64,000 nt of DNA from contig CALSPD010000013.1 in assembly GCA_943788145.1 (NCBI GenBank), positions 1-64,000 of the forward strand. The letters are read 5' to 3'. Position 1 is the stretch's first letter, and each line of letters begins with the position of its first letter. The stretch comes from an uncultured Flavobacteriales bacterium. GTDB lineage: Bacteria > Bacteroidota > Bacteroidia > Flavobacteriales_G > Salibacteraceae. The notes under the pieces were generated by a model. It did no database searches, was not told where the DNA came from, and saw only the letters and a program-made list of their open reading frames with translations. The position numbers and the translations under genes were made by a program. This document shows, one piece after another, positions 21,976-51,485 of this stretch.

Positions 21976-24900
21976 CTAGCGAAAGAGGGACATCTTACCA
22001 AACTCCTGGGTGAAATATTGATCGGCTCCGGATGCCTTGCGCTCAATGGCCGACCCATCAATTTTCATAATTACTCGGTATAGATAAACACCATTGGCCA
22101 AGCGGTCTCCAAATTCATCTGTGCCGTCCCATGCATATTGCGTCATATTACGCCCAATATTGATCGGGCCCAGTTCGTCCTTGGTGATTTCGCGGATAAC
22201 CTTTCCTGTAATCGTCAAGATTTGGATGGTAAATACATCAGGCACCTTAGATCCGGTGAGGGTGAAAACAAATCGAGTGGATGTGGTGAATGGGTTGGGG
22301 TAATTCATTACCTGTGTTACGGTGCTTTTATTAACCACTTCGAATTCTATGTTGTAGTCGTCCGAACCAGCTGCATTGCCGCTAGCATCTCGTCCCATTA
22401 CAGACAAGGTGTAAATCCCATCGTCCAATGACTCTGGCTTGAAATAAACCCGTGCTTTATTCTTGCTATCGCTTGCCGCTTCAAAAGCCATGATTTCTTT
22501 TCCGTTTTGCACAAAGGGAATGCGGCTGTGACTTCCACCAGGAACGGTCAGATAAACATCGAACGATGTGGTGTCCTTCATCAGTAAATAACTGTTTTCA
22601 TCTTTCAATTCCATCACAATTTCTGGAGTTGGGGAGACGATGTCCCGATTTAAAATATGGATGCCATCAAAAGTTACGTCCAACAGTGGATTGCTTTGAT
22701 CTGCAGTGACCGTTAAAGTTCGATAAGCCTTATTGTTGAAGCTATATTCTTCCTTATGCCATTCTTTCCCCAATGGGTTGACTTCCATCCAAAGCGTATA
22801 ACGACCATTTAATGCAGCGGTGAAAATTTCAACAGAATCAAAAATGACTTGTTCGGGCGACATGCCAGCGTAGGTCACCGTATCGTCTTGGGCAACAACT
22901 CCATCGGAGCTGGTCATCCAATAATGAACTTGAAATTCATTGAAGGCAAACTCGCTTATGTTTTCAAAGGCTACACCGAAGAAGAATTTCTCCCCGGCAT
23001 TGACGCTGGTAGTTCGATATGCAACCCCTTCGATTGGATTGATTGCCGCATCTGGTGCAGGATCGTAAAGCACATGCCAACTCCTCAATTGACCTGGGGT
23101 TCCTGCCGCATCATCCCGTGTGAAATAGTCTAAGTTGACCCGCAGTGTGCTATCCGCATTGGTGCTCGAAATGTCAGCACTTCCGCTTTCGGTAAGCGAA
23201 GCGAGTTCCGTTTCAATTTGCTGAATATTCGTTCCGATGGCTTTGCTAAGTACTTCTTCTTGGGAGTTTGCTTCTTGTGCGCCAGATTTCAAAATGAATT
23301 CACGCCAAGCCATTGCTGGTCCTATTTCTGGCCCTGTAATGTCCCCTTGTTTCACATTTGAGTAAACCTTGGTGTTCAAGGTGATCACATCGCGTGGTTC
23401 ATGTCCGAGGACTTCCGCCTTGACGGAAGCATCGCCCTTTTTAGTAAAGAAAATGTAGGGATGCGTATTCTCAACATAGCGGATGCTATCGGCCCCCAAA
23501 GCTTCAAACGCCTGATAGTGGCTTTCTTGCCAATACTGCGCATCTTGAAATAGTCCTGAACCTAGGCTATAAGCCAAAATGTAATATCCATCGGGTACTT
23601 CATTGGTGATCATGTTGACCATGGCGTCCATTTGTGTGGCGTTTTTAACCAAAAATGAAAACCAATATTCTACTCGAAGTACCCGCGAATTGGTTGATCC
23701 TTGAACGAAGTTGTTGCTGTTTCCAAATTGGTGGTTCGAATTGATGAGTTGGCCGTTGTACACGCCATAAGTGCCCCAAGGCTCGAGGTTGAGCGTGTCG
23801 ATCACTGCAATGGCTATGGCTGGAGCAACACCATATTCACCAAATGGAGCACCCAAGCCATCGAGCGCATATTTGGTGGAGTAATACTCATTATCGTTGG
23901 CTGGAGAACCTACATTGTTGACGTATAGTTCGCGAGAAGCTTCTGAATAATGAAATTGTCGTTTGGTTCGATCATACTCGATATGATCAAAGTCGTTGAC
24001 TTTGAATTGAAAAAAGTGGTCCTGGCCCCAACCAAATTGATTCTGGATTACCTGAAAACTGAATTCCCCCCACTTTGTCTCATCGTCAGCTGGTCGAACG
24101 CGCCAAAAGAATACCGTACTGTCCTGAAATCCAAAGCTTAGTAAATTTGGGTTCCAATGGAGGATAGCTCCCGACTGCGTCATGTTTTGGCTTTGAAGAA
24201 ATGGACTATCGTAGGTATCTGTGGTGTCAATCTGAAACACATATTCTTTGGAGGGAGCGAATGGATAACCAGTATTTGCCTTTAGGGTGACGTCCATCGA
24301 TCCTACAACACCAAAATTGTAGGGATATACTGGCGACAAATCGGACTCGATGATGGTGAAGTCCAGCGCGGTTACCGTATTGTTTTGAAACTCATCAAAT
24401 TCAGGTATGCTGTCGCTGGGTAAATCAACTTCGATGTGCATTTCGTTGTCACCTATTCCATCAACGTCATTCACGTCAAATCTAAAGCGCACTTCCTTTG
24501 AATAACCCAGATTGGAAACAGTTAGAAACTTATTATCTGCTTCCCTTGATGTGGGGAAAAGCCGAGAAGCATGAACAGTAAAGGGTTTTGAAACGTAACG
24601 GCCTAAATTGGTGATGTCAACAACAACATCAAATGAATCGACATCATTGGTGATGACGGCTGGCTCGAATCGAACTTGAATACCTTGATTTGGATCGTTG
24701 ATCGTCAACTCGCTTCGCTCATGCGGATATAATTTAAACGCAGGATCGCCATGTAAGGTCATTTCCAGTGCCATGCTGATTTTTCGCTTATCGTCTGTGT
24801 TTCCAGCATTAGGTGAGCTAAACGATTGAGCAGTAGCTAATAACTGCGCTCCTAAAGATTCGCCATATTGATTGACACCCATGTTTGCATGAAATAATCC

Positions 24901-27141
24901 AGTGTATTCGTTCAGTTGGGAGGTTAGACTCAATCCTGGTGCAGCCACAAAGGCAATTGCGCCAGCATTTGGAATCAAAACATATTGTTCGGAAATACTT
25001 GCCAAACCATCGTCATACAAGTGAATGTTTCCAGAAAAGCAACTCAAGGCCATCACCATCGGGTAGCGTCCTTCATTGTTCCAGTCGCTCGGATCGTCCA
25101 CATTGATGTCGAACCCAACTGAGGTCCCATGTCCAAAAAAGGTCATCATGGCTACACCATCATGAATGATTTTTCGGAGTGTATCCACGTCCAACTGCTC
25201 AATTACTTCACCGCTTGTTTTCGCGAACAAATAGGTCTTTCCTCCAAAATGCTCGCCTTCGAGAACGTTTTTGTAGCCGTTCAAATAATTAATAAAATCT
25301 TCATTCTCCCGTGTATTTGAGCCGCCAGCGAAGTGAAGAATACGTTTTTGCCACAGTTTTTTATTCATGGTGTATTGGGCAGCTTCATCGTTTTGGGCAA
25401 GTTCAGCCAATCTCAATTTGTCCTTATAGGCGTTCAAATCTCCGTTTGTCAGTGCTGCAATTCGGCCGGTCGCAATGGTTGGAGCGTAAGGCGCTGAACC
25501 CAAACCCATGGTAAAATAATTGTCCGTTGGTGGGCTGCCCATCGTAGGCACTAGGCATTGAGCACGCTTTGTTTCTGAACCTCTGTGCTGTGATTCTTGA
25601 ATGGCTTTTCCGGCTAGAAATAGATACTGAGGAGGAGTCGACCATTGATCTAGCGTGTAGTCGCAAAATCCCCGAATGGATAGCGGATGATAGCGCACAC
25701 CATAGGCAAATTGATCGTACAATTCGTCAATATAAACAAGCACAACGCGTCCATCGTGTGTGCCGTTTCGGTAAGCTGCGTACGTACTTGCAGCAGTGGA
25801 TAGACTTCGATGCGATATCATTAAGAAAGCCGAGTCTTTTTCTAAGTCCATGGGATTTCTAAACTGTCCGCTGGTTCCAACTGCATCTAATTCAGATCCA
25901 GCAATCGAACGGATAAGGTTATCGATCTGAACATACAGTGGGCGCTCCGATCCTGCATCCACATTACATTTCAAGGTTGTTCCAACTTGTGAAACCGAAT
26001 AGCGCTTGTGGGCACTTATATCATAGACATGGCTTGTAGCATTGCTTCCCCAATCCGCCAAGCTAAAGTGTGCACTGTTTCCATTCGCTGGAACCCTGAA
26101 TAGTAGTTCGCTTAAATTCTCACCCGCCATAGACATCACATGCGGATATCGAAGTTTGAAGTAAGCCACAGCCGAATAGTCGGAATTGGTTTCAATGGCC
26201 GAACCAAGCTGTGAAGTATAAGCCTGAAACCGATGCGAAGCCGAGGTGAGAAGGCTTGATGAGAAGGTGAATTGATGTTGTGTATACGCGTAGCTGGGAA
26301 TAATCACTCCGTCAATTTCGGTGAAGCTTGCTCCGCTGTTGATGCGAAAACGTATGTGATGCGCTTGTGTTCCTCCAGCTCCAGCATTTAATCCCGCCAC
26401 TCCGGCTTCGAGTGTAGCCATCGGAGCCCCAGCACCGTTAAAAGGGTTCCGAGTTTGAAATACCTTCTCGCGAAAAGCGGCAGAATTAGCTCCGTTGTTA
26501 TATCCGAATTTATCGCTCATCCAGCCTTTTCCTCCATCGTACAAGGTGTTTGGCTTGCCCTGCCCAATATCTTCTCCTTCTTGATATACGCCTGCACCAC
26601 CTGCGGCAGGTGTGAAGGATAGGATTTGTTCGGAAATAAAGTAGGTCATTACGGACACTGAGGGCGAAACATAAGGCACTGTGGTCAATCGATGCGTGGA
26701 CTGCGTGCCGTCCGGATACCAAGTGAGGTAATAAACTAAGGTGTCAGATTATAGACTGTAATACGGATTTGTTTGCTGCGATTGGTTCGGGTATAGCCGT
26801 TCATCCAGCCAACCATTGTTTCCTTCGCAATATAATTCTATGTATTCGCCCGAGTCGAACGATCCATCTCCCTGACCTTCTATGTGAATGTATTGCTCTT
26901 CGCCTTTCGCGAAAATTTGAATGGATCGAGGATCAATGGAAGCAATTGGAATGGCAGGATTAACCTCGTTAAGCGCAAAGTTAAGTGCGTTATAGTCGAT
27001 GCGGCAGGCGCCTTTTTTAGTGACTTTAAATTTGAAATAATATCGGTCTGTATCGTAGTCTATCCACTCGTTGCCGTAGGGTTGCGCGAACGAGAAAAGG
27101 GTCGATACTGAACATAAAAATCCAAGTAAAAGTCTTTTCAC
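21976..27141 (-). pseudogene. PorU2-like C25 (gingipain-type) peptidase interrupted by an in-frame TAA
   Basis: The frame begins with GTG at 27141, overlapping the upstream stop (TAGTG), and encodes a signal peptide plus 130 aa ending NPYYSL. A TAA at 26749-26751 follows, and the same frame then continues DTLVYYLTWYPDGTQS for another 1570+ aa. The second part holds the C25 peptidase domain with the His in FFGHGTS and Cys in ALSCFSGN, several Ig-like domains and a FlgD-like tail (NYPNPFTTSTRF ... YAWDGTDEFGDRLANGVYLYR). Size and neighbours fit the putative T9SS sortase PorU2, which would process cargo at the outer membrane. Whether the stop is a mutation, a read error or is read through cannot be told. 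Confidence 0.82.
26749..26751 (-). other. In-frame TAA inside the PorU2-like gene
   Basis: The codon lies between SL and SDTLVYY in one continuous frame. A single base change from TAT or TAC (Tyr) would create it. Confidence 0.8.
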
Positions 27142-28223
27142 TAAGTCTTTCGATTTAAGGCGAGTTTCAGACTAAATACGTTCGAATAGAGAGCCACACT
27201 TTGATCGCCAATGTCAGTCAAGGCATAGTCTATACTCAAAACATCTTTGATGGTTACCCCAACCCCAATGTTAGGCTGAAAGGTGTATTCCGAGTAATTA
27301 CCTACTTCGGCTTTAATGCGCTGTACATTGCCAATGCCACCACGAATGTAAAAGATGGTCAAATAGGAAAGTTCAATGCCTAAATTGGGATCAATGCTGA
27401 TTGGATCGCTTGATATCAGAACATTTCTTCGACCATCTGTGGTGATGTCAAAATTCAATTCCGGCATGATTCCAACTCGATCCTTGATGACAAATTTCCG
27501 ACCAATGCCCAAGGCAATTTTTGGTAGCGTAACTTCTAATCCGTTTTTTGGTAAGTCGTTTTGAGTAGCCTGAAAAACAGCAATGGTTGTCGAATCTAAG
27601 GTGTACTTCCAAGCATTGAAAGTTGAAGTTATATCACGACCAACAACGCCCACATTCCACTGTCCAAATTTGTATTGGGCACCAGCATCAATGCCAAAAC
27701 CCCACGCACGGGCCATGTCGCCCACTTGCCGATAGATGATTTTTGCATTGCCTCCAACGCTAAGACCTTTGGTTCCCAACTTCTTCGCATAACTTAAAAG
27801 AAAGGCGTAGTCGGCAGCTGAAAAAGTCGTAATCCTATCGTAGTTTACTTGTCCACTTTGATCGATGAGCTGGGTTGTATTTGGAATATCATCCACACCA
27901 AAACGGATGGCACTGATGCCAAAGGCACTCGTTTCGTCAATTTTAGTCCCAAAACCAACGTAGTCATACTTGGCTATGCCTGCGAAATATTCCGCATGTT
28001 GAGCCGCTACTTGCAGGTTATCAGTAATTCCAGTTAATCCAGCTGGGTTCCAATAGGCTGCCGTTACATCGTTAACGGAGGCTACTTGGGCCTTGCTCAT
28101 GGCCAAACCCCGTGCGCCAACACCAATGCTTAAAAATTCATTGCTGTATTTTGGCGCTTGCGCAAATACGTCATGCGTTAGTGCTAAAATGAAGAATGGA
28201 AGGATGGCGAAATATGCTCTCAT
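27141..28223 (-). CDS. PorV/PorQ-family outer-membrane beta-barrel protein
   Basis: The product is about 360 aa: a signal peptide (MRAYFAILPFFILALTHDVFAQA), then the family motif FLSIGVGARGLAMSKAQVASVNDVTAAYWNPAGL and FadL-like beta strands to the end. PorV/PorQ-type proteins shuttle or anchor T9SS cargo at the outer membrane. The frame extends upstream to 28274, but the signal peptide and a minus-strand TACATTTG at 28236-28243 favour the ATG at 28223. Its TAG stop overlaps the GTG start of the peptidase gene (TAGTG), so the two are translationally coupled. Confidence 0.87.
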   Translation of the reverse strand: MRAYFAILPFFILALTHDVFAQAPKYSNEFLSIGVGARGLAMSKAQVASVNDVTAAYWNPAGLTGITDNLQVAAQHAEYFAGIAKYDYVGFGTKIDETSAFGISAIRFGVDDIPNTTQLIDQSGQVNYDRITTFSAADYAFLLSYAKKLGTKGLSVGGNAKIIYRQVGDMARAWGFGIDAGAQYKFGQWNVGVVGRDITSTFNAWKYTLDSTTIAVFQATQNDLPKNGLEVTLPKIALGIGRKFVIKDRVGIMPELNFDITTDGRRNVLISSDPISIDPNLGIELSYLTIFYIRGGIGNVQRIKAEVGNYSEYTFQPNIGVGVTIKDVLSIDYALTDIGDQSVALYSNVFSLKLALNRKT

Positions 28224-28235
28224 AGCTGTGTTGGA

Positions 28236-28243
28236 CAAATGTA
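28236..28243 (-). promoter_or_regulatory. Putative -7 element of the porV-like/porU2-like operon
   Basis: TACATTTG on the minus strand, 12 nt before the ATG at 28223. Confidence 0.45.
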
Positions 28244-28417
28244 CGAAGGAAATGACTGTTGGGTTTGGACGCATTAAACTCGTTTTTCGGGTGAAAATTG
28301 TATTAAACGCTTTGAACCTTGTCGTTTGATGATGGGTGTCGCGAATCGTTGAACATGGCCAGTTTTAAAGCATTTCAAACCTATTCAGAGCCGTATTTAT
28401 TGCTGTCGATTAATCGC

Positions 28418-28450: not shown

Positions 28451-28895
28451 ATGAAATCCTTCCTTCCTTCCTTCCCTTGCCCTAGCTGTGATCTTCACCT
28501 TATCGACAACGACAAATAACGCGCAAACGACTGTGATCACAATATATAATGTCCTTGGGACCTGTGATATGTGGATTCATGGATATGCGAATTCTAGTTG
28601 CGGTGCAACGCCATACCTTTCCAGTGGGGTTTGTGTTCCTGCAGGTACTACCGCAGTCTTAAATTCTATTGGGAGTGCGGGAGATGAGTGGGAGTATTTT
28701 TCTTTTCAGCCGGCTCCAGCAAGTGCAGGCTGTGGTAACCCAAATAATTGTGGCCATGCGCCTGATTATATTTTCAATCTTTATTATCAATCAATGGGCT
28801 GTGGAACGCCAACCACTTTTGTAGGTGGAAGTTGTCCTTGTGGTTCAAGCATAACGATTACTCAGCCTTCTGCAACGACTATTGAAATTCTTTAA
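28451..28895 (+). CDS. Small Cys-rich secreted protein with repeat-controlled frame (currently OFF)
   Basis: The ATG at 28451 opens MKSFLPSF and ends at a TAA at 28517-28519. A second open frame, beginning near 28455, encodes ALAVIFTLSTTTNNAQTTV and then about 125 aa rich in cysteine pairs (GTCDMW, SSCGAT, GCGNPNNCG, GCGTP, SCPCGS). Removing one TTCC unit from the tract at 28460-28475 joins them into a perfect signal peptide, MKSFLPSLALAVIFTLS, cleaved before or near QTT. So the gene is probably real and out of frame by one repeat unit. The function is unknown. It lies 23 bp before a type B T9SS cargo gene. Confidence 0.7.
28460..28475 (+). repeat. TTCC tetranucleotide repeat (4 units) in a signal-peptide region
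   Basis: Four tandem TTCC units lie at codons 4-8 of the gene starting at 28451. Three units restore the frame, four units give a stop after 22 codons. Confidence 0.85.
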
Positions 28896-28918: not shown

Positions 28919-31471
28919 TTGCCTCAAGTTCAGAGCATATTGACCTTACTTTTTGTTTGTCTCTTAAACGGTTTAATGGGCACTAAGGTTAGCTATGGTC
29001 AAAACATTACGCGCTGGCAGTTTTCTAAATTTAATGAACTTCAGATTCAGGAAGGATTTACAACCCATTCATCTATTAGTCAAATACCTAGCACATCTAA
29101 CGGCTGTAGTCATTATTTGAACGATTCTGTATTCTATTATGTATATAATGGGCAGGTTTATAATAAAGACCATAACATTGTTTCTAATGGATCAGGGCTT
29201 CTTAGCGATATTGGCAGCCCAAGTCTTGCAGTTCCGAGTTTTGACTTTGAGCGCTGGGTGATTTTCACAATGGAAGTGGAGTTTGATAGCAGCCTTAGCT
29301 TCTCGATCCTTGACCTAAGCCCCGATGGCTTTAATGGAAGCATCGATTCAAATACCAAAAACACCCTAATATCCGAGAATTCCAATGAATATTTATCTGG
29401 TTTTTTGGGTAAAGAACAAAATGCTCGATATGGCTTTGTGGTTTATCGAGATATTGTTGTCGATTCGTTGATGGTATTGAGTGTCGATCGAGTGACACTT
29501 GAAGTCAAGCCTTGGTCACGAATTCATTTGGGGCAATTCGATGAGTTTTTCGGTCATATGCGTATGCGATTCTCTGAATTAGGAGGGAAATTTGCCGTGG
29601 TCCAAGCTAAAGCGATTGGCGAAGAAGATTCCATTCTAATTGGCGACTATAGTGCCAAGACTGGTCTGCTCTCTAATCTTTTTAAAATCGGGTTTAATGA
29701 TATGTCAGGGCTACAAGAATTGGAATTTTCGGGCTCGGGCCAATATTTGTACTTCAACAACGCCACCAATTCTCCGGGATTCTATCGAGTTGATCTGGAG
29801 GCTGGGTCGCCAGGTCAAATCGAAGCATCGTTAGACACGGTCGTGAGTTCACTCTTAGGATGCTTTCAATTGGCCCCCTTTCGCGAGATATTTCACAGCA
29901 TAATTTTGGATTCGTGTATTGGAGCTTTATACAATCCTGAAGAATCAAATATTTCGCTGTTGGATTATGATTCCTGTTCAGTTTTTCTAAATGGTAATAT
30001 ATCATCCTTTTTTTTCCCAAGATACATGGCCGGAACACTTATAAATCGGATCGTGTATAGCGATAAATGTGATTCAACCTTTGCTTTCGATTTGTGGGGC
30101 ACGAAGGATTCTGTTCATTGGTCTTTTGGAGATGCTTCTTCAGGTTTAGCCAATAATGCAGTCGCCTTTCAAACAGCGCATCAATTTTCTGATACGGGTT
30201 GGTACACCATTAAGGCTATCATATATGACGGTATTTACATCGACTCTATTTACAGCATGGTTCATGTGAACGCTGGCTTGAACTCGAAAATGGCATTCGA
30301 TTCTACCATCTTGTTTTGCCAAGGGACAGATGTTAGTTTGATGGCAGTCAATCATCCATATTCAAAATTTACCTATGCCTGGTCCAATGGTGCCGTTAGT
30401 TCGGGTATATCTACTTCCGAAGCAGGCGAATATATTTTGAGTATATCGGATCGGTGTGATACGGTAGTTCAGCGGTTTACATTGATTGAACAAGATACCA
30501 TTTACCCTTCGTTACCAAATGACACTTCCATTTGCTCTTTTGATAGTATAACCTTAATTGTTCATGGCGAATCGCCTTTTGAAGTGCTTTGGAATACAGG
30601 CGACACTTCTTCTGCATTGAATATTTCAAGGGCTGGAAATTGGACCGTATCAGTAAAAAACGCCTGTGGTATTTTTTCTGATTCCATTCACATCGCAATC
30701 CAGCCATCGGCTGATGGGCGTCTTCCCGAAGACAGTATTTATTGTGCTGAGGGTCCTGTGATTTTGACTCGTCAAAATACGGACGGCATAACCTATATAT
30801 GGTCAAATGGTTCAAGTGAAGAGCAAATTCGTGTTGACTCATCTGGTTATGTTTCATTGATTAGCTATGGAGCGTGCGATTCACTTAACTCAGAAAGTTT
30901 AATAGAAATAGTCGGAATAATAAAGCCAGATTTAGGTGCATTTTCAAGTGTTTGTTCAGGCGAACAAGTAGAGCTTTTTAATCATGCTCGAATTAATCCA
31001 AACTATTCTCAGGATATGACTTATCACTGGTCAACGGGAGAAGAAACTGAATCCATATGGGTGTCCGATTCGGGACGCTATTGGCTAAATCTTCAATACG
31101 GAACTTGCTCGGTAAGAGATACGGTCCAAGTCGATTTTCGAGGTGATTGTTACGACCATTGTAAACCTGCACCACCAAATATCATTACCCCAAATGCGGA
31201 TGGCGTTAATGACGTGTTTAAATTAGAAATGCTTTGCGAAATGACTGATATTGAAGTAAATGTCTATAACCGTTGGGGGCAATTATTGGCAAGTAAAAAA
31301 GGGGAGGAATTCAAAAATCAATACAGTCAATCACGTTTTGTTTTCAATTGGGATGGCCGTGTGGAGGGTTTTTTAGTGGCCGAAGGAGTCTATTTTTATC
31401 ACATTTCTTACAAGCCGAAGGAGGCGAGTAACTTTAAAAGTTATCGAGGTAGCTTTCATGTAATCTATTGA
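28919..31471 (+). CDS. Large secreted protein with PKD-like domains and type B (gliding-associated) T9SS tail
   Basis: The 850-aa product has a signal peptide (ILTLLFVCLLNGLMGTKVSYGQ), an N-terminal beta-propeller-like region, a PKD domain near residues 385-445 (VHWSFGDASSG), repeated WSNG/WNTG beta-sandwich segments, and the C-terminal CHU_C domain NIITPNADGVNDVF ... YNRWGQLL ... FNWDGRVEG ... GVYFYHISY. Type B tails are exported by T9SS and often stay at the cell surface or support adhesion. A TTG start at 28919 is used because no ATG lies between it and the upstream stop. It is a homologue in layout of the gene at 44939-47604. Confidence 0.85.
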   Translation: MPQVQSILTLLFVCLLNGLMGTKVSYGQNITRWQFSKFNELQIQEGFTTHSSISQIPSTSNGCSHYLNDSVFYYVYNGQVYNKDHNIVSNGSGLLSDIGSPSLAVPSFDFERWVIFTMEVEFDSSLSFSILDLSPDGFNGSIDSNTKNTLISENSNEYLSGFLGKEQNARYGFVVYRDIVVDSLMVLSVDRVTLEVKPWSRIHLGQFDEFFGHMRMRFSELGGKFAVVQAKAIGEEDSILIGDYSAKTGLLSNLFKIGFNDMSGLQELEFSGSGQYLYFNNATNSPGFYRVDLEAGSPGQIEASLDTVVSSLLGCFQLAPFREIFHSIILDSCIGALYNPEESNISLLDYDSCSVFLNGNISSFFFPRYMAGTLINRIVYSDKCDSTFAFDLWGTKDSVHWSFGDASSGLANNAVAFQTAHQFSDTGWYTIKAIIYDGIYIDSIYSMVHVNAGLNSKMAFDSTILFCQGTDVSLMAVNHPYSKFTYAWSNGAVSSGISTSEAGEYILSISDRCDTVVQRFTLIEQDTIYPSLPNDTSICSFDSITLIVHGESPFEVLWNTGDTSSALNISRAGNWTVSVKNACGIFSDSIHIAIQPSADGRLPEDSIYCAEGPVILTRQNTDGITYIWSNGSSEEQIRVDSSGYVSLISYGACDSLNSESLIEIVGIIKPDLGAFSSVCSGEQVELFNHARINPNYSQDMTYHWSTGEETESIWVSDSGRYWLNLQYGTCSVRDTVQVDFRGDCYDHCKPAPPNIITPNADGVNDVFKLEMLCEMTDIEVNVYNRWGQLLASKKGEEFKNQYSQSRFVFNWDGRVEGFLVAEGVYFYHISYKPKEASNFKSYRGSFHVIY

Positions 31472-44938: not shown

Positions 44939-47604
44939 CTACCGAACGACCGTAACAGAACCCCGATACTCCACTTCTTTATTCGTAGTTTGTGGGGTGA
45001 ATCGAATGCTGTAGAAATACGTTCCTTCGCTGACGGATTCGCCATTTACACTGCCATCCCAGCGGAAACTCGGCTCGGTACTTTCAAAAACGACCTGACC
45101 CCAGCGATTGAAAATTTGTAATTGATACGCCTCTAATGGACAGTCTAAAAACGAAGCAAATTCATCGTTCACCCCATCGGCATTGGGTGTGATGATGTTG
45201 GCCAAGCGCGGTTTGCAGCCATCGTAACAATCGCCTCGCTGGAAAATCACAATGCTGTCGTGTACGACACAACCTTTGAGCGTCACGATTACGCTGTATA
45301 AACCTGTGTCGGTGACCAATAAAATAGAGTCTGTAGAACCATCATTCCAACCGAAATTCAGGTCTTGACCTGTGCGGTTTGGTGTTGGGTAAAGCACAAC
45401 TTCTTGATCCAAACAAATAGCCGTGTCGCGCCCAAGGTCGGTATAGGGCAGCGGCACAAATTCTACGTTAAACGTATCGTTGAGCGTATCGCAGGCGCTA
45501 AAACTGAGCAGACTTACCGTTTGCGATGAATCTATGCGGTATTGCGGGCCGTCTGTGCCATCGTGCCATTGGTAGCTCACGCCATTAGTTTGTGGGTTGA
45601 GTACATAAAAAGGTATTTCGGAGCAATAGACGCTGTCGTTTGGTAAATAGCCATCAGCGCGCGGCAAAAAGGTAATGGTGGCGCTGTCGCTGAAAGTGCC
45701 GCAGCCGTTGACCACAGCAACCGTAAGATTTACCGCCACAATTCCGGGAGCAACATCGGGGCGCGGCAACAACATGCTGACGGCATTAACCAAATTGTTT
45801 TGCTTTTCTGTGGCTACGGTGTCCCCCGCACTGTTTATCCAATAGGCGGTAATGGGCGACTGATTTGAATCTATGTTGGCCGTAATAACAACGCTGTCTT
45901 CGCAGGTTTGCACGTTATTGAGGCTGATTTGGAGTGGTTTACTCAGATACACCAAAGCCGTGTCTTGGTCGCTGCCGCATTCGTTGGTAAAGGTTAGGCG
46001 GATTTCTGTGGGACTAGTGACGAGGTCTGTTTTGGTTAAAACAAGGGTTGAATCTGTGCTGCCGTTGCTCCAATTATAAAGCCCTTCCCGTAGTTTTTTG
46101 GTTGGAAGCCCAGCATGAAAAACCACCGTGTCATTGCCTGTGCTGCACAGGTCTTGGTTTGGGCCAAGGTCTAGTTTGGGTACATCTTTCACATAGATGT
46201 TTTTAATGACAGTATCCGTCTTTACCCCGTTTTGCGCGATAAGCGTAACAGTAAAAACCCCTGTGTCGCTAAACACATGACTTGGCGCTAAGGCTGTGTC
46301 TGTGTTGTTTGCCCCGCTAGCAGGATCACCAAAATTCCAAAACACCGAATCGATGAAAGTAAAGTTGATATAAAACTCAGCAGATTGACCCACGCACACC
46401 GTGTCTGCATAGAAATTAGTGACGAAATAGGAAGAGAGGAATTTTGGTACGCTGATACCCCCGTTTTGCCTTCTAGGAATAATATGCTGTCCTGATAACC
46501 ACATAAATTCCCTAATTCATTAGGACGGTGGATGACATCCATGTATTTAGCGTGTTGGGAATTATTATCCCAACAATTTCCGTAAATCTTACCATTCGGC
46601 CCCATTTGCAATCCTACCATTACAGGTGAACCGAGTGTAACGTCTAACCAAAGCTCTGAAGCTTGAATGGCGCTTTGTGTTGGAACTGATAGGTCGTATT
46701 GAAAGGGGCCACCCGTGTACAATTTTGAATCATCGGGGCTAAATTCGAGACCGGCTGGCACACCTCCCGTAAATGGCAGTAATGTTCGTAAGTTGGACAA
46801 TTGCCCCGTGGCATTATCAAAGTCATACAACTCGATTCGTTCAGAATTCAGATGTGCTAACATCGTGCCTTTGTGATTAAACCTAAGATTTCCTTGCATT
46901 GGACCGAGTGCTGTATGGACAATTCCGAGACTCGTGGTAACGGGTGTGCTCGAAATGCCCGATTCCGTAACTAAAAAAGCATGATAATTATTCGTAAAAC
47001 TTTGTCTTACCATAAGCCAGAAATCAACACCATTGGCATGAGGTGTGGCGCAAATTTTTTCTTCTGTGCTGTCTCTTACATAAACATTTTTAAACGTATC
47101 AACCACATCGCCCATGCCGTTGTCTAAATCCATGTCCACTAACGTAGCAAAGGCGCCAGCCATTATGCCGTCAGTATAAAATCGATTGGCTGTTCTTAAA
47201 TAAACAAAGTAATACTGATTTGGATGGTTCGGTCTAGGAATTATGATGGAACCTTCTTCCGCCAATGTCGACTTGCCATTAGGATCAAATTGTACGCCCA
47301 CGTTCATTAATGGTAGACCATTGGGCATTGATCGATGCTCACGATTAATAATAGCAGCAGATGAACCATAAAATAGCAGCTGCCCAGTTGCGTCACTCAT
47401 AGAGCAAACATGGTGACTAGTGTAAGTATTATTGCCAATTGAATAATAGAATGTAGAATCATTCTGGTTTGTGTCAGCCACAAATACGCTTCCATTATAT
47501 TTAATTCCAGCGTCCGAAAAGAAATACCAATTCGCAGATTCTAGCTGTCCGATAACATTAGTCCACGCCAGGAAAGAAAACATTAAAACTATAGCCGATC
47601 GCAT
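44939..47604 (-). pseudogene. Large type B T9SS cargo protein, frame broken at a C5/G5 tract
   Basis: The first part (47604 down to about 46463) has a signal peptide (MRSAIVLMFSFLAWTNVIG) and a beta-propeller-like region (YYFVYLRTANRF ... LEFSPDDSKLYTGG). The second frame, from about 46460, carries a PKD domain (FWNFGDPASG), Ig-like repeats and a CHU_C tail (NIITPNADGVNDEF ... FNRWGQVVF ... FRWDGSVNG). The frames join at GKTG/ISVPKF if the G-run opposite 46458-46462 gains or loses one or more bases. Whole length would be about 885 aa. Layout matches the gene at 28919-31471. It begins 5 bp after the stop of the upstream cargo gene. Confidence 0.75.
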
Positions 47605-50603
47605 TCGCCTTAATCAACGATAAATTTACAACTGTGAGTTAAGCCATTTTTTGTAACGTAAATAATATACAGTCCAGAAACAAATGAATTCTGAATAGGA
47701 TACTCTTTAGTCTTGTTAATTGTTTTGTGCAGAACTAGCTGACCATTGCTCGCATAAATGGCTAATTCGCCAGAAAACTCTTGGCTAAATAAGACATCAA
47801 ACGATCCATTATTCGGGTTAGGAGCAACCTTTAGTGCGATGTTTTTATCATTTAAATGCAAATCATTTTGCTCGTGTTCCTTTTTATAAAAGGCATTGGT
47901 TGACGAATGAATCCTAGCAACGAAAGCCTCGTGATTTATGGATTTCTTCTTTAAAATACCATCAATGGAATAAAACAGTAATTCGTCATAAACTGAAGTC
48001 ATTGCAGTAAAGCCGGTGGTCAGCATAGAGCTATCAAGGCTACATATATCTAAATGCTCGTTACTACCAGTATTATTTGGGTCCGCGAAGCTCTTCGTAT
48101 TGAAACCGCCATTAGGATCAAACTGAAGCGTAAATAGACCAACAAAAAAACCTACGTTGAATGGCGTTCCTGATCCTAAAAGCATGGTGGTCGGACTATA
48201 TTGAAATTTACCCACGCCAAATACTTTTCCATGCGAAAACTCCAAAGCATTAAAGCTTTCGAGCTCCCCAGAAATAGATCCCTCTTGGCTAAACCAGTTG
48301 TCTATCAGATTTACATCCGTACTCCCAACAAATCCATCGGTAAGCGCGCCAAGTGCCGTAGTCGTTCCATTGTTTGTTGTGATGTTATCGGTAAACTGGC
48401 CGCAAAAGATCAAATCGTTGGGGGCGTATAGCTGACCTCCGTAATCTGTAATGACCAAATCCATCCCATAGTCGGCATCTAGGCCTTCATACACTTTAAG
48501 GGTTTCCTGGGTCCAACTGGTTTGATTTGCTTTTTGCACCGTTTTGAACAAAAAGACGTCTTGCACATCTCCAGCAAAAATTATAGGATTAAGCCCCGAA
48601 CTGGTTCCAATGCAGTTGTTAAATCCATGCGTTATCGCACCCGTTTTTATATCCCCAATGCCGTAAACGTAAATATCCTTAGAGACCACCGAACCAATTT
48701 TGATTGCATCGCCATGATCGTTATCGGCTGTTCCGAAACTATTCGCTTGGAGCTCGTTGCCGTTCGTTTCCAGTAACATATATACCACATCCTCATCCGT
48801 AGATGAATTTGCCAAAAAGGGTGAACCAGAGAAGCCGCCAGTCAGCGAATCTTTAAACTCACCAATAACCGCGATCAACGAATCAAAAAGGGCAAGGCCA
48901 TGAAAACGGTTCGTTTGACTTACCGTATTTCCGCCCAAGTAAATCCAATTTACCGCCCCAGTGAACATGTCCATTTGGGCTACAAAACCCTTTTCTGCAA
49001 AGTTTGTAGAAAGGTTAATGCCGCTGTTGATGGCACTCGCAGGGCCAATATTACTGCCAAGCGTATCCAATATTTGTAAGGAGCCGTGCACAGCGCCAGA
49101 GGCGTATAATTTTCCGTTATGTATTTCCAAGGCTTCAACGTAAGTTCCATTTACTCCTGAGGCTTTGAAGTTAGTGGCCCAAAGGGTTCCGCAAGGTCCA
49201 TTTGCCGACACATAACCTGAATGAATTCCAGCAGCACTTGTAAGCGAAACGTTAGAGGTGTTGTGTTTTTCAAACCCAATATCTCCTTGATATCGACCCG
49301 AATTATAATAAATATCATATCCTAATCCCGAAACAGCACTGGATAATCCAGCAACGCCCATTCCTTCTGCCCAGTCGGATACCTCGCTCAACGGGTGTTT
49401 TGGAAATGGTAATTCATAGACCTCAACCTGACCTAAGGTATCGGTAAAATCACAGCCGTAATAGTTATACTTAACGATGACCGAACTAAAGCCTAATCCA
49501 GCAACGGCAGGGTCAAAAAGTCCAAGTACGCTATCTATAATCCCATCTCCATGAAAGAAAATATCAAGACTATCAACGTTGAAAGCCGCTCCTAAGGCGG
49601 TATCGGGACTAAATTTTAATTCAATTTGAAAAATTGAATCTGACAGGCAAACTGTGTAAGTGTCGCAATAAATTTTTGGATGTTCTTCCAACCCTATTAT
49701 AAACATGCCGCAAAGTCCTTGTTCATAAGGCGGAGGGAAATTTGGCCAAAAGAAGTTTGGACCACCAAGAAATGCGGTATCGATGTTAATCGAATCTCCA
49801 AATCTGCCTGTGAGAATTACATCGGTTCGATAATCATAAAGTTTTGGGTCAGCTATTTCAATGTCTGTTATATACCTAGAAGTGATCTTACCATTATTGA
49901 ACACTAAATCACTTGGGGAGAAAAAATCATACTCCCATACTTGGCTAGCACTCGTTCCTAAATGAAGCCATTTCGATAGTTTACTATACCAAAAGTGATC
50001 TGATGTACTTGAAGCGAAATCGTAGAGATGATCTCGAATAAAAACAGGATGGGGCAAACACAAAATTTCGGGATGCATTCCTCTGTTCCAGCCAACATAC
50101 ACATCATCGCAATTACCTGTTGAAATGGTGTTTACTTGAGAATCATAGACAGTATCCCCATTAGCAAGTGTGTCCGGAATTATTTTTAACCAATCCCAGT
50201 CAAGATTATCGTAATCGGGAATGGCCAAAAATCCCGTCTCTCGTTTGCCAGTAGAATATGAGGACCAAGGTGAGTCTCCTAAAGTTCCGACATTCCCAAC
50301 CCCATTGAAATTGGCACTATCGCTAACAAACCCCCCAACCATATTTCCGTTATCGCTAATGGCCAAGGCCTGATCTCGGTGAGGACCTCCGGCCGTAACA
50401 GCATCCTGCTTTGTAATATCAAACAAAGGAAATCGCACTGCGAATATGTCGTAATCACCAGCTGAAACAAAAGGAACAGCTCCACCACCCGGAGGATAAA
50501 AAATGATAGAATCCTGAAAGGCTCCGCTTAAAAATAGGTCGGGCTCGGTATTATACCAACCTAGATAACCAGCAGCCAAATCGGCAGCGTGATCGTCTCC
50601 CGA

Positions 50604-50606
50604 TTA
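50604..50606 (-). other. In-frame TAA inside the 47.6-51.5 kb cargo gene
   Basis: The stop lies between STVIG and SGDDHAADL in one continuous frame. The flanks read as one beta-propeller repeat (IGxSGDDHAADLA), so the stop is within a domain. Confidence 0.75.
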
Positions 50607-51394
50607 TCCAATTACGGTAGAATTCTCCAATTGATCGTTTTGAATGTCAAATTGGGCAAGGAAAATATCGTAGCTAAAGGGGTCATTCGAAAAGGTATTG
50701 TTGTAAGGAGAAAGGGGCGCACCCGCACTTCCAAAGGATTCCGTATTAATCGAATTTCCTTGAAAGCTAACGGCTAGGAAAAGTTTTCCACTGCTCGGCC
50801 CATTGGTGAGGGTGATATCTCCAGGATAAATATGGTTTTCAGGATAGCTGCTAAATACATGACAGCTAACAGGTGTAAAGTTCGAATCATATCGAGCTAA
50901 AAACACCCGTTGATAGACTGTTGTGAATGGTGCAGTCACTGTTGAAAGTTGAGGTGAACCAGTCCGATCAAATAGAATTAAATCACAACCTTGAAATACA
51001 CCCATAACACTAATGAATCCGTTTCGGTCAACTACTATTCTCTCGGCTACCACGTAGGTATCATTCCAAGGAAGTGGACAATTTGTTTTAGTGGAATAGT
51101 TGTCTATACTGATGTAGGCACTTCTTTGTGGTAGACCAGAATTAACGTCATATCGAACCAAAAAGGCTTTTGCTAATTCAGGGGTCAAGGCCGCCTGCAG
51201 CGTGTCATCTCCAACAAAGATCACTTCTTGAGAAATTCCTGCAAATCCGCCTGCAATATAGCCGCGCCCAAATTGATCAACCGTTAAAGAATTTCCAGTA
51301 CTGCTACCCGTAGCGCCATTAATCCAATTAAAATTCTGACTTCGCAATATACTAGGGTATAAAAACACAAATGAAACAATTACCAGCTTAGCAA

Positions 51395-51480
51395 GCTGAG
51401 TGGCTGAGTGGCTGAGTGGCTGAGTGGCTGAGTGGCTGAGTGGCTGAGTGGCTGAGTGGCTGAGTGGCTGAGTGGCTGAG
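51395..51480 (-). repeat. 8-bp tandem repeat, 10.75 units, within the coding start of a surface protein
   Basis: The plus strand reads GCTGAGTG ten times and then GCTGAG; on the coding strand this is CACTCAGC. It lies between the ATG (51483-51485) and the signal peptide. Eight is not a multiple of three, so each gain or loss of a unit shifts the frame. The present number keeps it in frame; both other frames meet a TAA within about 15 nt after the repeat. Confidence 0.95.
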
Positions 51481-51485
51481 TTCAT

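Follow-up and report, generated by a model that had tools for sequence, protein, structure and literature searches.

An octamer array between the start codon and the signal peptide of a surface-protein gene in Salibacteraceae: a likely, possibly decayed, contingency switch

Analysis of a 64,000-nucleotide stretch of DNA from an uncultured Flavobacteriales bacterium of the family Salibacteraceae (contig CALSPD010000013.1, positions 1 to 64,000; hereafter the window) revealed a perfect tandem array of an 8-bp unit between the start codon and the signal-peptide-like segment of a gene, here called gene A, which is followed closely by a second gene, gene B; both carry sorting domains of the type IX secretion system (T9SS). 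We consider the array a likely simple-sequence-repeat contingency switch by which slipped-strand events would phase-vary a surface protein, the copy in the window having possibly decayed. The features at the 5' end of gene A are as follows.

51483..51485, minus strand: ATG start codon of gene A, the first ATG/GTG/TTG in frame
51395..51481, minus strand: octamer array (CACTCAGC)n, 10.875 perfect units, encoding an 8-residue period, SATQPLSH
51336..51394, minus strand: signal-peptide-like segment LAKLVIVSFVFLYPSILRSQ, judged by eye and from hydropathy

The array is 87 nt long and occupies nt 5-91 counted from the ATG at 51485, with one base separating the two; the nearest in-frame stop upstream of the ATG is 27 nt away. 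Tandem Repeats Finder (TRF) returned the array with 10.9 copies, 100% matches, and a score of 174, and only two other rows for the window, with scores of 40 and 41. This confirms the perfect octamer array reported in a preliminary description of this DNA, with the count corrected from 10.75 to 10.875 units. The octamer dimer had 9 matches in the window versus 0 expected from shuffles and no further match in the rest of the assembly (2.89 Mb, 86.6% complete). The repeat is thus a pure tandem array beyond chance length, and its unit is not a multiple of three. In the present assembly, the array reads in frame into LAKLVIVSFVFLYPSILRSQ, as had been claimed.

The array is positioned so that changes in unit number switch the reading frame. 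When such changes were scripted, the unaltered array gave an open reading frame (ORF) of 293 amino acids (aa), and the loss or gain of three units gave 285 or 301 aa; changes of -1 and -2 units left 29 aa and those of +1 and +2 units left 37 aa. Both out-of-frame registers hit a TAA within 15 nt past the array, bearing out the earlier claim about the two alternative frames. The use of an alternative start past the array, named in the preliminary description as one condition that would undo this interpretation, looks unlikely: the 60 codons scanned downstream held no in-frame ATG, and the in-frame start-like codons past the array are CTG (+8), ATT (+14), and GTG (+26). This GTG is the first in-frame ATG/GTG/TTG there and lies inside the hydrophobic stretch.

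In the mechanism that we propose, slipped-strand mispairing during replication would add or remove octamers, and the change would be reversible. One register in three would join the ATG to the signal peptide of a protein that is large, secreted, and putatively located at the cell surface, and the other two would stop at a TAA within 15 nt, yielding neither the signal peptide nor the protein. Gene B is probably cotranscribed with gene A, and polarity may affect its expression as well. Homologs in the genus would be switched alike by means of a different repeat unit. The copy in the window stands in the ON register yet has a nonsense codon farther along, and would thus be a decayed contingency gene or one affected by a consensus error.

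Indirect support for this mechanism comes from a congeneric genome (G003). Among 41 genomes searched, homologs of the first ORF of gene A turned up at three loci of G003, in G006, and, as a weak match, in G047; two matches in G017 span the repeat only. At all three homologous 5' ends of G003, ATGAAGAGG (ATGAAGAGGTTGA at the DNA level) is followed by a pure (AC)n tract and then by a signal peptide. The tracts are 21, 29, and 25 nt long, so that repeat number varies among these three loci; the first two are in frame with the signal peptide and the third is out of frame, with a stop after 37 aa. The loci C1 and C7 are identical at 147/150 nt upstream of the ATG, yet their tract lengths differ. 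A search for (AC)9 in 13 genomes of the genus gave 12 overlapping matches, all of them at these three places and nowhere else. Degenerate 7-nt repeats (CCCTCGC-like) also lie 60-120 nt upstream of the ATG of the three (AC)n genes (L033, 3714-3766; L034, 1296-1357; L044, 280-335). Longer repeats were not found at the other T9SS gene starts examined: 40 other 5' ends in the genome of the window (out of 118 sorting-domain matches) held no repeat beyond one A8 run, and in 40 5' ends of G003 (out of 95 matches) and 20 of G017 (out of 150 matches) the longest repeats were mononucleotide runs of 8-9 nt, three in each genome.

The same octamer, or a variant of it, occurs in this arrangement in two further genomes. 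In Pedobacter schmidteae (L115), 7.6 copies of the exact unit CTCAGCCA lie between an ATG and a signal peptide, with the ATG out of frame, and the protein has a Peptidase_S74 domain and a Por_Secre_tail (27.6 bits, cut-off 27). In G017 (L109), an ORF that counts 1151 codons with N included has an N-interrupted CTCAGCAA array between its ATG and its signal peptide; its T9SS tail scores 19.8 bits, below the cut-off. Outside the phylum, Pseudomonas indoloxydans (L075) and P. oleovorans (L080) carry a CTCAGCAA array within the same gene (97-99% identity in the listed aligned pieces), where the 23.9 units of the former leave the frame open to 1139 aa and the 15.9 units of the latter lead to a stop at 355 aa. 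The difference is exactly 8 units; therefore, CTCAGCAA varies in length and frame in nature, albeit in another phylum. The octamer is not a family-wide trait, since its 3-unit pattern GCTGAGTG was present in 1/35 family genomes, and the IUPAC octamer pattern was found in 1/395 genomes of the class, in a sample that did not include G017 with its variant octamer. In Bacteroidales RGIG313, CTCAGCAA arrays of 4.4-4.5 units (L078, L087, L092, and L111) each lie 29 codons from the end of a long ORF, and RGIG313 and RGIG4154 have several arrays apiece.

Placement of simple repeats behind start codons was then compared across 395 genomes of the Bacteroidia, of which 28 contained (AC)10 and 29 contained (CT)10. 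Tested were 28 (AC) and 29 (CT) distinct tracts from 30 loci per search, a subset of all tracts. The layout sought was an ATG at most 60 nt upstream of the tract whose frame crosses the tract without a stop, reaches a length of 150 residues or more (40 or more where the contig ends), and has a hydrophobic segment among its first 40 residues. It was present in 6/28 (AC)n tracts on the forward strand versus 0/28 on the reverse strand, in 2/29 versus 1/29 (CT)n tracts, and in 1/69 versus 0/69 octamer arrays; pooled over the three repeat types, 9/126 compares with 1/126 (Fisher, 0.02). A null with random positions gave 97/20000 for (AC)n, and further runs gave 104/20000 and 98/19706. That null ignored the stop-free nature of repeats; a stricter one, in which tracts were placed at random, allows for it and doubled the expected (AC)n rate to 196/20000, about 1% (binomial, 3e-7). 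A placement bias after the ATG is clear for (AC)n and suggestive for (CT)n and was not shown for the octamer. The loci picked out are the following.

L249: Mfa2-like anchor
L250: OmpA and DUF3575
L255: SprB repeats
L268: DUF4468; doubtful, with a hairpin and then T's after the tract, though the automated test was passed
L280 (CT): Peptidase_S74, with a sub-threshold T9SS tail
L274: PKD_6; doubtful, with its own ATG after the tract
L265: no family; doubtful, with its own ATG after the tract
L271 and L277: no family

A further candidate, L266, was set aside by eye, having no long hydrophobic segment. Dropping L265, L268, and L274 leaves 4/28 (AC) and 2/29 (CT) tracts, all out of frame. The (CT) locus L280 and the octamer locus L115 encode the same kind of protein behind different repeats. 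It is an even call, in our estimation, whether slippage repeats between the ATG and the signal peptide form a recurrent, independently evolved switch for T9SS cargo and other surface proteins in the Bacteroidia, in which the unit (octamer, AC, or CT) would be exchangeable and the position and kind of protein kept. We had initially put this slightly above even and lowered it once the null had been made stricter and in-frame ATGs had turned up past some of the repeats.

Several observations count against a switch, whether in the window or in the class. With the stricter null, the (CT)n excess is weak (149/20000; binomial, 0.02), and octamers have the layout no more often than that null predicts (107/20000; binomial, 0.31). 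The layout test also missed L109 and both in-frame G003 loci. All nine automated (AC)/(CT)/(AG) matches are out of frame, an outcome with a probability of about 0.03 if one third were ON, and because of this the ATG in question may not be the true gene start for some of them; when L115, the window array, and the G003 loci (three) are included, 3/14 are in frame, with about one third expected. An in-frame ATG lies 21-32 nt past the tract at each G003 locus and 19 nt past the array in L115, from which the gene could be expressed whatever the phase, independently of the tract or with a signal peptide of reduced length. In the G006 homolog, the signal peptide is short and no repeat precedes it; the switch is therefore not conserved across the genus, and the weak homolog in G047 also starts without a repeat. 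A scan of GTDB r220 contigs for CTCAGCMA x3.75 found 66 stretches with 69 arrays scattered across many phyla, with the layout of the window in 2/66 stretches (L109 in G017 and L115). Finally, neither gene A nor gene B is intact in the assembly, as the remaining features make plain.

50604..51485, minus strand: first ORF of gene A, which shares the frame of the array and ends after 293 aa at an internal TAA (50604-50606)
47610..50603, minus strand: remainder of gene A in the same frame, open to the stop at 47610, with 35% identity to L032:2-2686
47616..47828, minus strand: T9SS type A sorting domain (TIGR04183) of gene A, 37 bits, cut-off 23
46288..47604, minus strand: 5' piece of gene B, 438 aa, starting 5 bp after gene A
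44939..46504, minus strand: 3' piece of gene B in another frame, with a T9SS type B sorting domain; the frameshift lies in the overlap 46291-46516

The preliminary description had taken the array-bearing ORF to end in the type A tail. That does not hold: the TIGR04183 tail is on the second ORF (47610-50603), beyond the internal TAA and in the same frame as the array, so that, as assembled, no single intact gene runs from the array to the tail, and a Sec signal peptide and a sorting domain do not share an ORF. Because of this TAA, no phase of the array can yield the full-length T9SS protein from gene A as assembled. Likewise, a cargo gene does begin 5 bp downstream, as had been stated, but a frameshift divides it, and the type B tail falls in the second piece. 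The proposal of phase variation itself is indirectly strengthened by the (AC)n tracts at the same site in G003, the out-of-frame octamer in Pedobacter, and the (AC)n excess in the sampled Bacteroidia, and it is weakened by these two disruptions. In a Pfam scan of gene A, the tail was the sole family match, and a PDB sequence search (E up to 1) returned T9SS tails at 6e-5 and 0.01 and one oxidase at 0.64. Other same-frame ORF neighbors in the window were taken by eye as ordinary gene boundaries.

A single in-frame TAA, at 26749-26751, is also present in a PorU2-like gene of the window (NF052324, 460 bits; 21976-27171, minus strand), and the piece upstream of it begins like a signal peptide (VKRLLLGFLCSVSTLFSFAQ). 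One internal TAA each was seen in the gene-B-like genes L181 (G000:C7, in the genome of the window), L182 (G006:C30), and L183 (G012:C99). The internal stops that were looked at, two in the window and these three, are TAA in 5/5 cases; recoding of TAA was considered for this reason and is unlikely. Elsewhere in the window, TCCT x4.8 lies at 28457-28475, between the ORFs 27141-28274 and 28919-31471.

How the disruptions are read bears on what the array is today. That the locus is a dead relic, formerly phase variable and now a pair of pseudogenes with a functionless array left over, is quite possible, if somewhat short of an even chance. The internal TAA of gene A and the frameshift of gene B fit this, as does the arginine aligned with the TAA site, a sense codon, in both G003 copies that reach that position; there is also a precedent in meningococcal autB, whose ON copies are mostly broken downstream (PMC5118866). 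On the other hand, the array is still perfect across 87 nt, the single TAA in the PorU2-like gene would equally fit consensus errors in the assembly, and slippage at the DNA level would go on even in a relic. Slightly less probable is that the disruptions are assembly or consensus errors in an incomplete draft and that the phase-variable operon is in truth intact and working. The assembly consists of 31 contigs at 86.6% completeness, and at least three disruptions were seen in 64 kb, all in large T9SS-related genes. In G003, a gene A end is followed, after a 3-bp gap, by a gene B that is open over 855 codons. The parts of gene A for the N and C termini lie there on broken contig ends, each open, and one whole frame was not seen in that genome either. 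Against errors, two of the three disruptions in the window fall within one two-gene unit, and the internal TAA codons in the gene-B-like genes of G006 and G012 make real nonsense mutations plausible.

It is unlikely that the array has no switching role and is a tandem duplication near the N terminus, whether due to chance or selfish, with its extra residues tolerated. The dispersal of CTCAGCMA arrays over many phyla, the single layout match among 69 arrays, and the G006 homolog that dispenses with a repeat would all be expected of such a duplication, but three G003 loci have a different repeat at precisely this site, (AC)9 is absent elsewhere in the G003 genome, and (AC)n placement is biased. 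Least probable is that translation starts downstream and that the array is a 5' untranslated expression rheostat, as proposed for octamers upstream of the Haemophilus hmw genes (PMC2651432): the later ATGs of G003 and L115, 19-32 nt past the repeat, would allow it, but the window offers only the CTG, ATT, and GTG codons noted above, and ATGAAGAGG, with its own positive charges, lies upstream of the repeat in all three G003 loci.

A contingency switch of this kind has close parallels in other bacteria. In the Neisseria genes autA and autB, the start codon is directly followed by AAGC repeats, with a unit that is not a multiple of three and a surface or secreted protein as the product, much like gene A (PMC5118866). 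In the same source, autB was in frame in 12/117 meningococcal strains, and 10 of those 12 were broken further downstream; autB is thus mostly OFF and often broken where ON, just as the window copy is ON at the repeat and broken beyond it. The two cases differ in that autA and autB involve a tetranucleotide, an autotransporter, a pathogen, and demonstrated slippage, whereas here an octamer or dinucleotide precedes T9SS proteins in draft genomes and slippage is proposed. In Helicobacter pylori oipA, CT repeats in the DNA for the signal peptide set the ON/OFF frame of an outer membrane protein (PMC10564699), which parallels the (AC)n tracts of G003, although unit, secretion route, and lineage differ. 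Octamer repeats are tied to surface adhesins in Haemophilus hmw as they may be here, but the hmw repeats lie 200-213 nt upstream of the gene and those of the window lie in frame after the start codon (PMC2651432). Within the phylum, the capsules of Bacteroides represent phase variation of surface structures (PMC11868660); these switch by DNA inversion, whereas repeat slippage is proposed for the window. A phase-variable S-layer protein is also named, its mechanism unstated (PMC12578637).

The repeat-slippage mechanism itself is already known, and its application to T9SS cargo is the apparent novelty; no description of repeat phase variation of T9SS cargo was recognized in the open-licence PMC literature that was searched. 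Restriction-modification systems of Bacteroidota are reportedly phase variable, as named in a reference title. If our interpretation is correct, a repeat switch before signal peptides could explain cell-to-cell variation in T9SS adhesins and enzymes, and the switch would be visible directly in long-read metagenomes. Some of the out-of-frame surface "pseudogenes" of draft assemblies would then be genes that are switched off.
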